Shown here: piece by piece, positions 34,331 to 40,530 of the stretch
Numbering within the stretch: position 1 is the stretch's first letter
How the letters are laid out: every line of letters starts with the position of its first letter
Assembly (NCBI RefSeq): GCF_000970285.1
Contig: NZ_CP009516.1
Location: 4,629,036 to 4,693,035 of the forward strand
Direction: 5' to 3'
From: Methanosarcina horonobensis HB-1 = JCM 15518
GTDB taxonomy: Archaea > Halobacteriota > Methanosarcinia > Methanosarcinales > Methanosarcinaceae
Length of the DNA stretch: 64,000 nt
The notes under the pieces: generated by a model
Seen by the model: only the letters and a program-made list of their open reading frames with translations
What the model was told of the DNA's origin: nothing
The model's database searches: none
Program-made: the position numbers and the translations under genes

Positions 34331-37009
34331 ATGGACGGAGGAATTAGAATTCAGAATAAATTAATCATTTTATTAGGATTTTTTCTTGTTTTAGCGTTGA
34401 TTTCAAGTGTTGGAGCGGCGGCTGAGATTATTGTCCAGCCAGGAAACTCAGTACAGGCTGTTGTGGACAATGCAAGTTCAGGTGATGTAATTACCATAAA
34501 AGCCGGAACATATACGGAAAATGTCAAAATAACCAAAGGTAATCTTACGATAAGATCTGAGTCCGGAAACCCTGATGATACAATAATTAAAGCTAGAAAC
34601 TCAACAGACAACGCGCTCTTCGTGCAGGCTGATAATGTAAAAATTAGCGGTATTAAAGCTGCTGCAGCAACCGCGGAAAGTGCCTCAGGAATCTGTCTTT
34701 CCGGATGTAATAACTGTGTAATTGAAAAAAACAAGCTCACAGCTAACGGGCGTGGAATTTATATCGTGAGCTCCAGAGGGTGCACGATCTCGGGAAACAC
34801 AATTGTCAACAATGGTTATTATGGAATTGTGCTTGGGAGTTCCAGCGGCAATACCATTTCCGGAAATATGGCTACTAGTGACGGGCGTGGTATCTATATG
34901 GGCAACTCTGACGACAATATCGTTTCAGGCAATACTGTCACTTTGAACAGCGTTTTAGGGTTCTATAGTTGTAGCTTGTGTGACCGAAACCAGATTTATA
35001 ATAACTACTTCAATAACACCGAGATATCCGTTAAAAGCGGGTCAGGAAATTCCTATAATACTACAAAAACCCCAGGTACAAACATCATTGGCGGCTCTTA
35101 TATAGGTGGAAACTACTGGGGGAAACCTGATGGTACGGGCTTTTCAGATACGGCAGTGGATAAGGATGGAGATGGAATTTCAGATTCCGCGTACACTCTG
35201 CCGGACAGTTCATACACAGATTACCTGCCTCTTGTATATCCGTCTAACTCGCCTGAACCCGTACTCCCTGTTGCGGACTTCAGCAACGACGTTACTTCAG
35301 GGAATGCACCACTAACGGTTACATTTACTGACAAAAGTACGGAAGCTCCCACTGAATGGAACTGGGACTTCGGAGATGGAAATGATTCAACAGATAGGAA
35401 TCCTATACACACATACACCTCAGCAGGAACTTATACTGTAAAGCTTACAGTAAGCAATGAAAACGGAACAGCTTCGAAAGACGGTACAATAACTGTTCTC
35501 CAGACATCTGAACCGGTAGTCCCTGCTGCTGATTTTAGCAGCAATGTTACCTCAGGAAATGCACCACTGGATGTAAGTTTTACTGACATAAGTACAGGTT
35601 CTCCAGCAGCCTGGAACTGGGATTTCGGAGACGGAACCAGTTCGGCAGATCAAAACCCTGTACATACTTACTCATCGGAAGGAACCTACACGGTAATGCT
35701 TACAGTAAGCAATGCAAACGGGACATCTTCAAAGACTCTAGAAATAAATGTGACGGGGGTAGAAATGGATATGGGCCTTCCTGTTGTAGACTTTGGCACT
35801 AACGCCACTCAGGGCTCTGCCCCTCTTGCTGTCCAGTTTACCGACCTTTCGCAGAATGTAGTTTCCTGGAGCTGGGACTTTGACAATAACGGACAGTCTG
35901 ACTCTTCCGACCAGAATCCTGTTTATGTATATGAAATTCCAGGAGACTATACTGTTAACCTGACAGTCAGCAATGCAAATGGTACGGCTTCAAAAACTAC
36001 TACAATAACTGTGCGGGAGGCAGAGACGGATACAGGCCTTCCGGTTGCGGATTTCAGCGCGAACGTTACGAGCGGCTACGCTCCACTCTCAGTCCTGTTT
36101 ACAGATCAATCGCAAAAAGCAACTGAAATAAGCTGGGATTTTAACAATGATGGACTGGCTGACGTGAACTCCAGTACCGTAATTTATGTATACACATCTC
36201 CAGGAACCTATAGTGTAAATCTGATCGCAACCAATGATAATGGGACAGTTTCAAAAACCGCTACAATAACTGTAGATAAGGAGAGTAGTGGAGGAAGCAG
36301 CCATAGCAGTGGAAGCAGCAGTGGTGGCGGTGGTGGAGGATCCCCTGAACCTGCAAGAAATGTTCAAACAAAAGAAATTTCACAGACTTTCATAACAAAC
36401 GGCAAGGCTGTAAAGTTTGACTTCACAAAAAACGCCACCTGTGTTGTTTACGTGGGCTTTGATGCAAAAAAGACAGCAGGCAAAGTCACAACAATTGCCG
36501 AAGAATTAAAAAACAAATCCGTACTTGTTTCCAAACTGCCTGAAGGAGAAGTATATAAATCATTTAACGTGTGGGTCGGAAACAGCGGGTTTGTAAGCTC
36601 AGAGAATATAGAAAACTCGGTACTCTGTTTCAAGGTTGAAAAGGCCTGGGTTCAGGATAAAAAGATAGATCAGGATTCTATCGCTCTCAACAGGTATGGC
36701 GATAAAAAATGGGAGCAGTTACAGGTTAACCTTTCAGGAGAAGACAAAAAATACCTGTACTTCACAGCCGATGTCCCGGGATTTTCCTCGTTTGCAATAA
36801 CAGGAAAAGCGAAAAACCTCTCTGAAGAAGATACAACAGAGACGGACCCTGAACAGGAAGTTCGCTCCATCAATGGAGAGTTTGCGAAAAATATGGAGCA
36901 GGAAGTTGAACAGAACTCTGACAGGGAAGAAGGCACGAGTGCGCCTGGATTTGAAATAGTCTATGGAATAGCCGGCATGCTTGCGGTTTTCCTGTATAAA
37001 AGAGAGTAA
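34331..37009 (+). CDS. Beta-helix/PKD surface protein with PGF tail
   Basis: 892 residues. Signal peptide (about 10-34, KLIILLGFFLVLALISSVGA); a NosD-type right-handed beta-helix domain (about 35-300: repeated SGNTIV/NNGYYGIVLGSSSGNTIS turns and the YIGGNYWGKPDGTGFSDTA end); four PKD domains (about 310-645, each with a WDFGDG-like core, the last two degenerate to WDFDNNG and WDFNNDG); a Ser/Gly linker; a PGF-pre-PGF-like domain (about 680-830); and a C-terminal GFEIVYGIAGMLAVFLYKRE, resembling a PGF-CTERM archaeosortase anchor. It is thus a processed cell-surface adhesin or envelope protein. The ATG used is in frame, but the GGAGG inside the first codons may be the real ribosome site (see the paralogue). 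Confidence 0.9.
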   Translation: MDGGIRIQNKLIILLGFFLVLALISSVGAAAEIIVQPGNSVQAVVDNASSGDVITIKAGTYTENVKITKGNLTIRSESGNPDDTIIKARNSTDNALFVQADNVKISGIKAAAATAESASGICLSGCNNCVIEKNKLTANGRGIYIVSSRGCTISGNTIVNNGYYGIVLGSSSGNTISGNMATSDGRGIYMGNSDDNIVSGNTVTLNSVLGFYSCSLCDRNQIYNNYFNNTEISVKSGSGNSYNTTKTPGTNIIGGSYIGGNYWGKPDGTGFSDTAVDKDGDGISDSAYTLPDSSYTDYLPLVYPSNSPEPVLPVADFSNDVTSGNAPLTVTFTDKSTEAPTEWNWDFGDGNDSTDRNPIHTYTSAGTYTVKLTVSNENGTASKDGTITVLQTSEPVVPAADFSSNVTSGNAPLDVSFTDISTGSPAAWNWDFGDGTSSADQNPVHTYSSEGTYTVMLTVSNANGTSSKTLEINVTGVEMDMGLPVVDFGTNATQGSAPLAVQFTDLSQNVVSWSWDFDNNGQSDSSDQNPVYVYEIPGDYTVNLTVSNANGTASKTTTITVREAETDTGLPVADFSANVTSGYAPLSVLFTDQSQKATEISWDFNNDGLADVNSSTVIYVYTSPGTYSVNLIATNDNGTVSKTATITVDKESSGGSSHSSGSSSGGGGGGSPEPARNVQTKEISQTFITNGKAVKFDFTKNATCVVYVGFDAKKTAGKVTTIAEELKNKSVLVSKLPEGEVYKSFNVWVGNSGFVSSENIENSVLCFKVEKAWVQDKKIDQDSIALNRYGDKKWEQLQVNLSGEDKKYLYFTADVPGFSSFAITGKAKNLSEEDTTETDPEQEVRSINGEFAKNMEQEVEQNSDREEGTSAPGFEIVYGIAGMLAVFLYKRE

Positions 37010-37131: not shown

Positions 37132-37572
37132 CCACACACTCTGTTTTTCTATGTACTTTTCTTTTCTACCACTTTATTTTTCTGAATACTCAGATTTCTC
37201 AATTTCTCTCCTTTGATTATTGAAAAAAGAGATTTGAGAATAACAAAGATAATTATGTAATCGAGTTAAAAAGTTAATTCGCGCCTTACAAACAAATTAT
37301 TATTTTACCGATCTGTACACGTTTTTTAAGTTTTATAAAAGTAATATTTTAAATCTGTGTACTTCTATTAGTTATACACATTCCAGCTCAATTGAAGTAA
37401 TCGATTCAGGAGTTTTACTCTAAATACCGGCCAAATTCAGCGCAAATGCAGAGTCCTACATCTGTATGTTCATTGAACATGGAGTGTATTTTTCATGGTT
37501 TACTGATACTACAATTTTCGTCCCTGATACAGATTTCACCCCCAATTTCTTGAATGGACGGAGGTATTAAAA
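37132..37572. promoter_or_regulatory. Promoter and conserved leader of second PKD gene
   Basis: About 440 AT-rich bases with no gene. The 3' end (ACCCCCAATTTCTTGAATGG, then ACGGAGG, about 37538-37564) is nearly identical to the leader of the first PKD gene, indicating shared ancestry of the promoter/leader as well as the coding part, or a shared translational control element. Confidence 0.55.
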
Positions 37573-40530
37573 ATTAGAAATAAACTGGTAATTTTATTAG
37601 GAGTTTTTCTCGTTTTATTATTAATTTCTGGAACAGGAGCAGCGGCTGAGATAATTGTCCAGCCAGGAAATTCTATACAAACTGCCGTAAACAATTCAAA
37701 CTCAGGCGATACAATAATTATAAAACCCGGAACCTATACCGAAAATATCAAAATAACCAAAGGTAATCTTACGATCAGGTCCGAGTCCGGAAACCCTGAT
37801 AATACGATAATTAAAGCTAAAAGCTCAACAGTTAACGTGCTTGCCGTGCAGGCAGATAATGTAAAAATTAGCGGCATTAAAGCTATTGGAGCAAGCGGGT
37901 CCAGCTACTCAGGGATTTACCTGTCAGGATGCAATAACTGCGTAATTGAGAATAACAAGCTTATGAGCAACGGGCGCGGGATTTATCTCGTGAGCTCAAA
38001 AGGATGTACTGTTTCTAAAAACACAATTACGGGTAATGGATATTATGGAATAGTACTCGGGAGCTGCTCCGGAAATACCATTTCCGGAAACACTGCTTCT
38101 GATGACGCCCGTGGCATCCATGTAGGCTCTTCTGACGATAACATCCTTTCGGGTAATATGGTTACCTCGAACAGTGCCTACGGCATATACGTATGCGGAC
38201 TCAGTGACAGGAACCTCGTCTATAACAATTACTTCAATAATACCGATGTAACTATAAAAAGCGGGATAGGAAATTCCTACAATATTACAAAAACTGCAGG
38301 CAAAAACATTGTCAGTGGAACCTATATTGGTGGGAACTACTGGGGAAAACCTGATGGCACGGGCTTTTCAGATACAGCAGTAGATAGGGATGGGGACGGA
38401 ATTTCAGATTCCGCATACACCAGTATAACGAGCAGTATATACTCGGATTATCTGCCCCTCGTAAACCCTTCCAACCCCGCAGCCCCTGATGCGGATTTCA
38501 GCAGCAATGTTACCTCAGGAAACCTGCCCCTGAATGTCTTATTTACCGATGCAAGCACAGGAACGGCCACCGCATGGAACTGGAGTTTTGGGGACGGGAC
38601 ATATTCAACTCTGAAAAATCCGGTGCATACATATTCAGCAGCAGGAAATTATACGGTTAAGCTGACAGCAAGCAATGCGGCCGGAAACGATACAAAAATA
38701 AAAGAGAATTATATCAAGGTGACTACCCCTCAAACTCCGGCTGTAAACTTCTGGGGCTCTCCGGTCTCAGGAAATGCACCGCTGAATGTAACCTTTAAAG
38801 ACAATACTACTGGCTCACCCACAGCATGGAACTGGAGTTTCGGAGACGGAACATACTCAACAGATCAGAACCCAAAGCACACATATTCAGCAGCAGGAAA
38901 CTACACGGTTAAGCTAACAGCAACCAATGCCGCAGGCAGCAATACTGTGACAAAATCGAATTACATAAAAGTGACTGGAAGTTCTTTGCAAACTCCGATT
39001 GCAAGTTTCAGCAGCAATATCACTTCAGGAAGTGCACCATTAAACGTCCTGTTTACCGATACGAGTACAGGAACTCCCATTGCATGGAACTGGAACTTTG
39101 GAGACGGAACTAATTCAGCAGTCCAGAATCCTGTACATGCTTACTCCACAGCAGGAAATTACACAGTAGTACTTACGGTAAGCAATGCTGCAGGCAATAC
39201 TACGGTAACAAAATCAAATTACATAACAGTTACAGGAACAGTTGCACAAAAACCTGTCGCCGCATTTTCGGCATCTCCAACTTCAGGAAATGCACCCCTG
39301 AATGTGACCTTTACTGACAGCAGTACAGGTTCGCCAGTAGCATGGAACTGGAACTTTGGTGACGGAACCAGTTCAACTGAAAAAAATCCAGCGCATACTT
39401 ATTCGACGGCAGGGAACTACACAGTAACACTTACAGTAACTAATGCTGCAGGCAGCAATACCGCAACAAAGTCCAGTTATATAAGTGTGGGGACAACTGC
39501 ACAAAAACCGGTCATAAACTGCTGGGGTTCTCCGAGATCGGGAAATGCACCCCTAACTGTAACTTTTAAGGACGATTCATCCGGCTCTCCCACAGCATGG
39601 AACTGGAGTTTCGGAGACGGAACGACATCAACACTCCAGAATCCGAAGCACACATATTCAGCAGCAGGGAGTTACACGATAAAACTGACAGTAACCAATG
39701 CAGCGGGAAACACCACGGCAACAAAGAACAATTACATAACAGTCACAGGAACATCCGTGCAGATGCCGATTGCAGGATTTAGCAGCAACGTTACCTCCGG
39801 AAATTTGCCATTAAGTGTCAGTTTTACTGACACGAGTACAGGGACGCCAACGGCGTGGAACTGGAGTTTCGGAGACGGGACATACTCAACAGTCAAGAAT
39901 CCTGTACACATATACTCCACAGCAGGAAGTTACACGGTAACGCTCACAGCAACTAATGCTGCAGGCAGTAACACGGCAACGAAATCAAATTACATAACAG
40001 TAGCAGGAACCTCTTCACAAAAGCCGGTTGCCTCGTTTTCGGCATCTCCAACCTCAGGAAACGCACCATTGGGCGTCAGTTTTACTGACAGCAGCACAGG
40101 TTCTCCAACAGCCTGGAGCTGGAACTTTGGTGATGGAACCAGTTCAACTCAGAAAAGTCCAACGCATACTTATTCGACAGCAGGAAACTACACCGTAACA
40201 CTTACAGCAAGTAATACGGCAGGCAGCAATACGGTGACAAAAACAAATTATATAACAGTCACAGGAACAACAGCACAAAAACCAGTCATAAACTGCTGGG
40301 GCTCTCCCAGGTCAGGAACTGCACCCCTGACTGTTTACTTTAAGGACAGTTCCTCAGGCTCTCCCACATCCTGGAACTGGAGTTTCGGAGACGGAACGAC
40401 ATCAACACTCCAGAATCCGAAGCACACATATTCAGCAGCAGGGAGTTACACGATAAAACTGACAGTAACCAATGCAGCAGGAAGCACCACGGCAACAAAG
40501 AACAATTACATAGTGGTATCAAAGGCCTGA
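37573..40530 (+). CDS. Beta-helix/PKD secreted protein, unusual start
   Basis: About 985 residues. In frame from 37573 the sequence is IRNKLVILLGVFLVLLLISG, a signal peptide, then a NosD-type beta-helix (about 30-290) ending YIGGNYWGKPDGTGFSDTA, then eight PKD domains of about 86 residues (each with WNWSFGDGT or similar). Unlike the neighbour it has no PGF-pre-PGF domain and no anchor, stopping right after the last PKD. No ATG, GTG or TTG precedes the signal peptide in frame: the ATG at 37554 meets TAG after seven codons, while the first gene's equivalent ATG is in frame. GGAGG (37560-37564) is eight bases from ATT (37573). Either ATT starts translation, or one extra A in AAAAA (37569-37573) is a frameshift. 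Confidence 0.75.
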   Translation: MRNKLVILLGVFLVLLLISGTGAAAEIIVQPGNSIQTAVNNSNSGDTIIIKPGTYTENIKITKGNLTIRSESGNPDNTIIKAKSSTVNVLAVQADNVKISGIKAIGASGSSYSGIYLSGCNNCVIENNKLMSNGRGIYLVSSKGCTVSKNTITGNGYYGIVLGSCSGNTISGNTASDDARGIHVGSSDDNILSGNMVTSNSAYGIYVCGLSDRNLVYNNYFNNTDVTIKSGIGNSYNITKTAGKNIVSGTYIGGNYWGKPDGTGFSDTAVDRDGDGISDSAYTSITSSIYSDYLPLVNPSNPAAPDADFSSNVTSGNLPLNVLFTDASTGTATAWNWSFGDGTYSTLKNPVHTYSAAGNYTVKLTASNAAGNDTKIKENYIKVTTPQTPAVNFWGSPVSGNAPLNVTFKDNTTGSPTAWNWSFGDGTYSTDQNPKHTYSAAGNYTVKLTATNAAGSNTVTKSNYIKVTGSSLQTPIASFSSNITSGSAPLNVLFTDTSTGTPIAWNWNFGDGTNSAVQNPVHAYSTAGNYTVVLTVSNAAGNTTVTKSNYITVTGTVAQKPVAAFSASPTSGNAPLNVTFTDSSTGSPVAWNWNFGDGTSSTEKNPAHTYSTAGNYTVTLTVTNAAGSNTATKSSYISVGTTAQKPVINCWGSPRSGNAPLTVTFKDDSSGSPTAWNWSFGDGTTSTLQNPKHTYSAAGSYTIKLTVTNAAGNTTATKNNYITVTGTSVQMPIAGFSSNVTSGNLPLSVSFTDTSTGTPTAWNWSFGDGTYSTVKNPVHIYSTAGSYTVTLTATNAAGSNTATKSNYITVAGTSSQKPVASFSASPTSGNAPLGVSFTDSSTGSPTAWSWNFGDGTSSTQKSPTHTYSTAGNYTVTLTASNTAGSNTVTKTNYITVTGTTAQKPVINCWGSPRSGTAPLTVYFKDSSSGSPTSWNWSFGDGTTSTLQNPKHTYSAAGSYTIKLTVTNAAGSTTATKNNYIVVSKA
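38985..40520 (+). repeat. Three-PKD super-repeat, two copies
   Basis: PKD units 3-4-5 and 6-7-8 of the second surface protein are serial duplicates. Each triplet has the same order of unit types, recognised by the openings FSSN, FSAS and NCWGSPRSG, with long stretches identical in DNA (for example ACTCCAGAATCCGAAGCACA at about 39632 and 40408). The period is about 775 bp. Units 1-2 follow the FSSN and WGSP types, so the array probably grew by unequal crossing-over. Confidence 0.75.

Follow-up and report, generated by a model that had tools for sequence, protein, structure and literature searches.

The locus raises the question of where translation of a large NosD/PKD gene begins, since no canonical start codon opens its signal-peptide frame. 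The gene lies on the plus strand of the analysed stretch of 64,000 nt (the window, in which all positions below are counted). Read directly, the ATG at 37554-37556 is followed by GAC GGA GGT ATT AAA AAT TAG. The original prediction, that this ATG runs into a stop, is thus correct, the TAG lying in its frame at 37575-37577. It also held that the signal-peptide frame opens at an ATT placed ideally behind GGAGG. Indeed, ATT 37573-37575 stands 8 nt past the Shine-Dalgarno (SD) element GGAGG (37560-37564), within the peak of 7-8 nt seen for canonical starts of the same genome. A run of five A residues (37569-37573) ends on the first base of this ATT. The upstream ATG opens a 7-codon frame, MDGGIKN (37554-37577), whose TAG overlaps the AUU; it is not the gene's start, since relatives have another codon in place of the corresponding RTG or carry it out of frame. 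In the signal-peptide frame a stop lies 48 nt 5′ of ATT 37573, with no canonical start in that interval, and the earliest in-frame ATG, GTG or TTG is GTG 37837-37839. A gene finder restricted to these three codons would pick this GTG, giving an 897-aa ORF that lacks the first 88 residues and with them the signal peptide. We put the probability at about 90% that the gene starts at AUU 37573 and belongs to a genus-wide class of AUA, AUU and AUC starts in unrelated genes. This reading, drawn from sequence comparison, follows from a codon that is conserved or exchanged with canonical starts among relatives, from upstream stops in many family members and from purifying selection on the frame.

From the AUU, the coding sequence extends over 985 codons plus stop (37573-40530). 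It encodes a signal-peptide region (37573-37647; judged by eye from the translation rather than by a predictor), whose basic-hydrophobic-small pattern is conserved in relatives, followed by a NosD beta-helix (PF05048, E 3e-44) and PKD repeats in eight stretches (PF18911, E 2e-160). The product scores 96 bits against a cut-off of 300 for the NCBIfam NosD maturation model TIGR04247 and is therefore not assigned to copper maturation. The RNA surrounding the start shows no unusual structure (z 0.63; 145 of 200 shuffled sequences fold equally well or better).

Comparison of orthologues, which the original prediction had called for, bears directly on the start. The same ATT stands in all six closest orthologues and in the more distant L034, all of them from other genomes. 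The run of five A is not preserved among them, so the homopolymer conservation among orthologues that marks a phase-variable locus is not found. This argues strongly against the proposal that translation begins at ATG 37554 and that the A-run is one base too long, be it a sequencing error or a phase-variable ON/OFF switch. Deleting one A would bring ATG 37554 in frame, as the ATG of the neighbouring paralogue is, and in L086 and L091 the SD-ATT interval is one base shorter, placing the RTG in frame. However, the downstream frame is unaffected in these two, a one-base change of the kind that a non-coding leader permits. Other letters replace the A-run in orthologues, and neither ATG nor GTG stands at the upstream position in L089 and L034. 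Furthermore, TAA directly abuts the ATT or ATA in L089, L066 and L067, relatives that share the target's leader, and a stop occupies this place in 14 rows of the family alignment, other subfamilies included. AUA and AUU starts also occur in unrelated genes. We therefore regard an A-run that is one base too long as very improbable, and frameshift, phase variation and sequencing error were rejected on the orthologue evidence; the rare AUU start, which the original prediction had named last, is the alternative that this evidence supports, as part of a wider class. The upstream RTG as a shared start was likewise rejected. It is GTG in L087 and L091 and ATA in L089 and L034, and the stretch RTGGAYGGAGG is kept in many family leaders whatever the frame (in the window, 37554-37564 and 34331-34341). 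Since the RTG holds a fixed place before GGAGG in the target's subfamily, its frame depends on the spacing: 7 nt brings it in frame, and 8 nt, the spacing found in the target, puts it out. Other members have lost the RTG.

Translation of the 7-codon frame from ATG 37554, termination at the TAG and reinitiation at the overlapping AUU form another conceivable route. The stop and the AUU share one base, and similar short frames exist in relatives with spacing 8, such as L068 and L070. Against this, many members have no ATG or GTG at that place or have it in frame, and genes outside the NosD family carry AUA, AUU or AUC with no such short frame. We judge reinitiation improbable, and it would in any case remain an AUU start. 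Loss of start codons is common in decaying genes, and the same genome holds a frame-broken copy of the family, L003, so that the target might be viewed as a dying pseudogene without a start. This is hardly credible for a gene with 985 open codons whose six orthologues all have ATT and against which it shows a dN/dS of 0.09-0.13 over the first 300 codons; over the same codons, the value against L034 is 0.33.

The AUU start thus preferred for the target recurs in other forms throughout its family. Relatives were found in 28 of 30 Methanosarcina genomes by DNA search and in 30 of 30 by protein search, among the matches listed. Among 129 distinct N-terminal stretches, 110 yielded a codon in the SD register from the seven admitted (ATG, GTG, TTG, CTG, ATA, ATT and ATC). 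The 19 dropped rows comprise 14 of low score, one of which (L023) carries an ATT in that register, and five with none of the seven codons (L106, L167, L166, L170 and L114). The aligned codon is ATA in 66 rows (including L003 despite its broken frame), ATT in 19, ATG in 13 and TTG in 12; GTG, CTG and ATC do not occur. An in-frame stop is visible upstream in 79 of the 85 ATA/ATT rows, and in 39 of these 79 no canonical start lies between stop and codon. The stop immediately precedes the codon in 14 of the 85, and 22 rows have no canonical start either upstream or downstream within the signal peptide. A canonical codon does occur upstream, mostly RTG at -18 or -15, in 42 of the 85 (44 when first upstream codons are tallied), and any one of these rows, taken singly, might start at that codon. 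Relatedness makes the 110 rows strongly dependent on one another: their tree can be explained with six changes between AUA/AUU and NUG as the minimum, and among the four codons it requires at least 11. Two loci deserve separate mention. In L003 (G000:C1:2763474-2763705), the ATA at the SD register is followed by an eight-A run that shifts the frame, making it a broken copy or a sequence indel. In G009 (L026/L106), a member's leader (C1:295224-295526) and coding part (297135-297199) lie about 1.6 kb apart, the latter with no SD and start in front, perhaps through an insertion behind the start codon.

The paralogue in the window is one of the rows with an upstream canonical codon. Its ATG (34331-34333) precedes GGAGG (34337-34341) and does lead into an in-frame signal peptide, as the original prediction stated. 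In addition, an ATT at 34349-34351, with a spacing of 7 from the SD on the plus strand, aligns with the family start column and with the target's ATT. Judging by this alignment, the paralogue probably begins at ATT 34349 rather than at ATG 34331, though here the in-frame ATG could also serve as the start. Because of this aligned ATT, little can be concluded about the target from the ATG of the paralogue.

Six further families outside NosD were chosen from candidate lists for their clean look and then checked by their relatives. One is a CooC-like nickel-insertion ATPase, for which all 29 Methanosarcina orthologues carry ATA; a 30th locus is a paralogue with ATG. No canonical start lies between the upstream stop and the ATA in 27 of the 29, and in one TGA immediately precedes it. 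The product matches the solved CooC structure 3kje (E 1.7e-47) with residue 2 aligned to residue 2, so that extending the alignment places the AUA at residue 1. An ORF call restricted to ATG, GTG and TTG begins 22 codons later, past the P-loop, and loses the Walker A motif. Outside Methanosarcina, 70 genomes were matched and 20 were read: 15 carry their ATG one codon further upstream, and in groups g4 and g5 ATA or ATC stands at the same place in four of four. One locus, L309 (G104, group g14), has ATA where the 15 others have ATG, which points either to a shared habit or to an assembly error, the assembly being fragmented. Across 15 loci of the SBP_bac_5 family, whose domain was verified in the two own copies, ATT occurs in nine, ATC in five and ATA in one. 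The second own copy adds another ATT, so that AUG occurs in none of 16; TAG immediately precedes the ATT in three.

The remaining four families mix both kinds of start. DUF1269 has ATG in 16 and ATA in 11 of 30 loci, three being unaligned at the start, and a methyltransferase has ATG in 13, ATA in seven and ATT in one of 21, one ATA copy having an inner stop. In a MATE protein (30 loci of the 49 places listed), ATG occurs in 23, ATA in five, and ATT and TTG in one each; the seven nearest have ATA in five, ATT in one and ATG in one. An FAD protein has GTG in four, ATT in one (the own gene) and one unaligned row among six. Homologues with a canonical start at the same position thus exist in these four families and in the NosD/PKD family (25 of 110). 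Recurring across the NosD/PKD family and unrelated genes, the start arrangement exceeds chance.

AUA and AUU starts tend to be accompanied by strong SD elements. In the NosD family, GGAGG precedes 57 of 85 AUA/AUU starts versus 2 of 25 NUG starts. The corresponding figures for AUA/AUU versus canonical starts are 10/11 versus 4/16 in DUF1269, 6/8 versus 2/13 in the methyltransferase, 1/6 versus 0/24 in MATE and 0/1 versus 0/4 in the FAD protein. Pooled without the NosD family, GGAGG stands before 17 of 26 AUA/AUU/AUC starts versus 6 of 57 canonical ones (p=7e-7, uncorrected for relatedness).

A scan of roughly one quarter of the target's genome (1.264 Mb; G000 1.4-2.2 and 2.6-3.0 Mb plus the window) extended the search beyond chosen families. 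A simple gene finder of our own accepted 742 genes, covering 63% of the scanned DNA. A canonical start lies 4-11 nt from a strong SD in 270 genes, with peaks at spacings of 7 and 8 nt (89 and 58 genes, respectively), and 122 genes have a strong SD with no such start. Within this set of 122, ATA occupies 19 of the 168 codon cells whose spacing is 6-9, versus 4 of 227 control cells (p=6e-5; 19 codons were tested, and one gene enters two registers). CTG is likewise enriched (13 versus 3 cells, p=0.0015), and with a looser SD definition both remain so (ATA 25 versus 11, p=0.001; CTG 20 versus 6, p=0.0004). ATT (9 versus 15 cells) and ATC (2 versus 3) are not enriched at SD spacing among these 122 genes; the case for AUU therefore rests on the orthologue comparison. 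In 800 kb of G088, from another genus of the same family and an unclean negative control, ATA is not enriched (8 versus 7) and ATT is (7 versus 1, p=0.013). Overall, the scan of the own genome covers 392 strong-SD genes. In 17 of these, ATA or ATT occupies the SD register and canonical starts are lacking upstream; three of the 17 have an ATG at most 13 codons downstream.

Such starts could, most simply, operate through SD-directed placement of the ribosome. GGAGG 8 nt upstream would position the small ribosomal subunit at AUU 37573, where the initiator Met-tRNA would presumably accept the codon with a third-base mismatch and insert methionine, as it would at AUA and AUC starts. The perfect GGAGG probably offsets the weak codon-anticodon pairing. 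Output would be expected to be lower than from AUG, and low output may be useful where AUG never appears. As to special factors, a duplicated aIF1 was considered as a cause and was not seen in the family genomes: PF01253 matches once above the cut-off in 109 of the 111 genomes, and a second match in G007 falls below it. No special initiator tRNA occurs among the 60 loci in 1.2 Mb of G000, a part that is also devoid of any CAU tRNA, so that this result carries little weight.

Whether these starts have a purpose is a separate matter. They may be tolerated, functionless drift, in which a strong SD makes the penalty small and the third base wanders. Such drift accepts the AUU start and disputes its purpose only, and we give it an even chance. 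DUF1269, the methyltransferase and MATE indeed swap AUA or AUU with AUG between species. On the other hand, AUG is absent from all 29 CooC-like orthologues and all 16 SBP_bac_5 genes. This absence is what selection for a weak start would predict, but the SBP tree needs only two changes among its start codons, which makes the absence weak evidence for selection. That AUA, AUU and AUC lower output or are regulated is weakly suggested, the sole hint being the missing AUG in these two gene sets. More speculatively, and in our view rather doubtfully, the NosD/PKD, SBP_bac_5, CooC-like and other genes may form a dispersed regulon whose common output depends on how stringently archaeal start codons are selected, e.g., through aIF1 activity, so that conditions relaxing this selection would raise all members together.

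Unusual initiation has precedents. Deinococcus deserti, a bacterium where Methanosarcina is an archaeon, reportedly makes unusual use of non-canonical initiation codons, found by proteomics, going by the title of a 2010 study by Baudet cited in PMC3305630. The bacterial infC gene, encoding IF3, starts with AUU in E. coli and AUC in Streptomyces, according to the part of the report concerned with it (PMC5472188), and so is a conserved gene that naturally begins at AUU or AUC, as here. However, infC is a single gene autoregulated through IF3, whereas the Methanosarcina class spans several unrelated families with AUA as the commonest codon. That report also describes sigR of Streptomyces, which starts with GTC, is repressed by IF3 and shows a consequence on change to a canonical start (PMC5472188); it differs from the present class in its codon and in being one bacterial gene. 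In bacterial in vitro work, non-Watson-Crick pairs are described as permitted at no codon position but the third, where IF3 excludes the weakest of them, and AUU read by the CAU anticodon as giving product at reduced yield (excerpts of PMC10158994); rare AUC, AUU and AUA starts are also said to be accepted in bacteria (excerpt of PMC9094748). Among archaea, work on Sulfolobus describes aIF1 as promoting discrimination against start codons of the non-canonical kind (PMC6237735, PMC8211752), which makes this factor a possible control point for the Methanosarcina starts. The portions of those two reports drawn on here concern biochemistry in another archaeon, with no natural class of AUA/AUU/AUC genes. 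In Methanosarcina mazei, Ribo-seq is described as finding unannotated small ORFs that start with ATG, TTG, GTG and CTG (excerpt of PMC11456600). Non-AUG starts as such are therefore known; in a survey by titles and abstract openings, AUA/AUU/AUC starts in Methanosarcina were not found described, nor was a genus-wide set of them across unrelated archaeal gene families.

If the reading proposed here is correct, some percent of Methanosarcina genes would start at codons that ATG/GTG/TTG gene finders ignore, and standard ORF calls would leave the affected proteins truncated or mis-started. Methanosarcina is a genus with genetic tools. Its AUA, AUU and AUC starts would constitute natural, conserved near-cognate substrates for archaeal start-codon selection, complete with interspecies AUA/AUG allele pairs.
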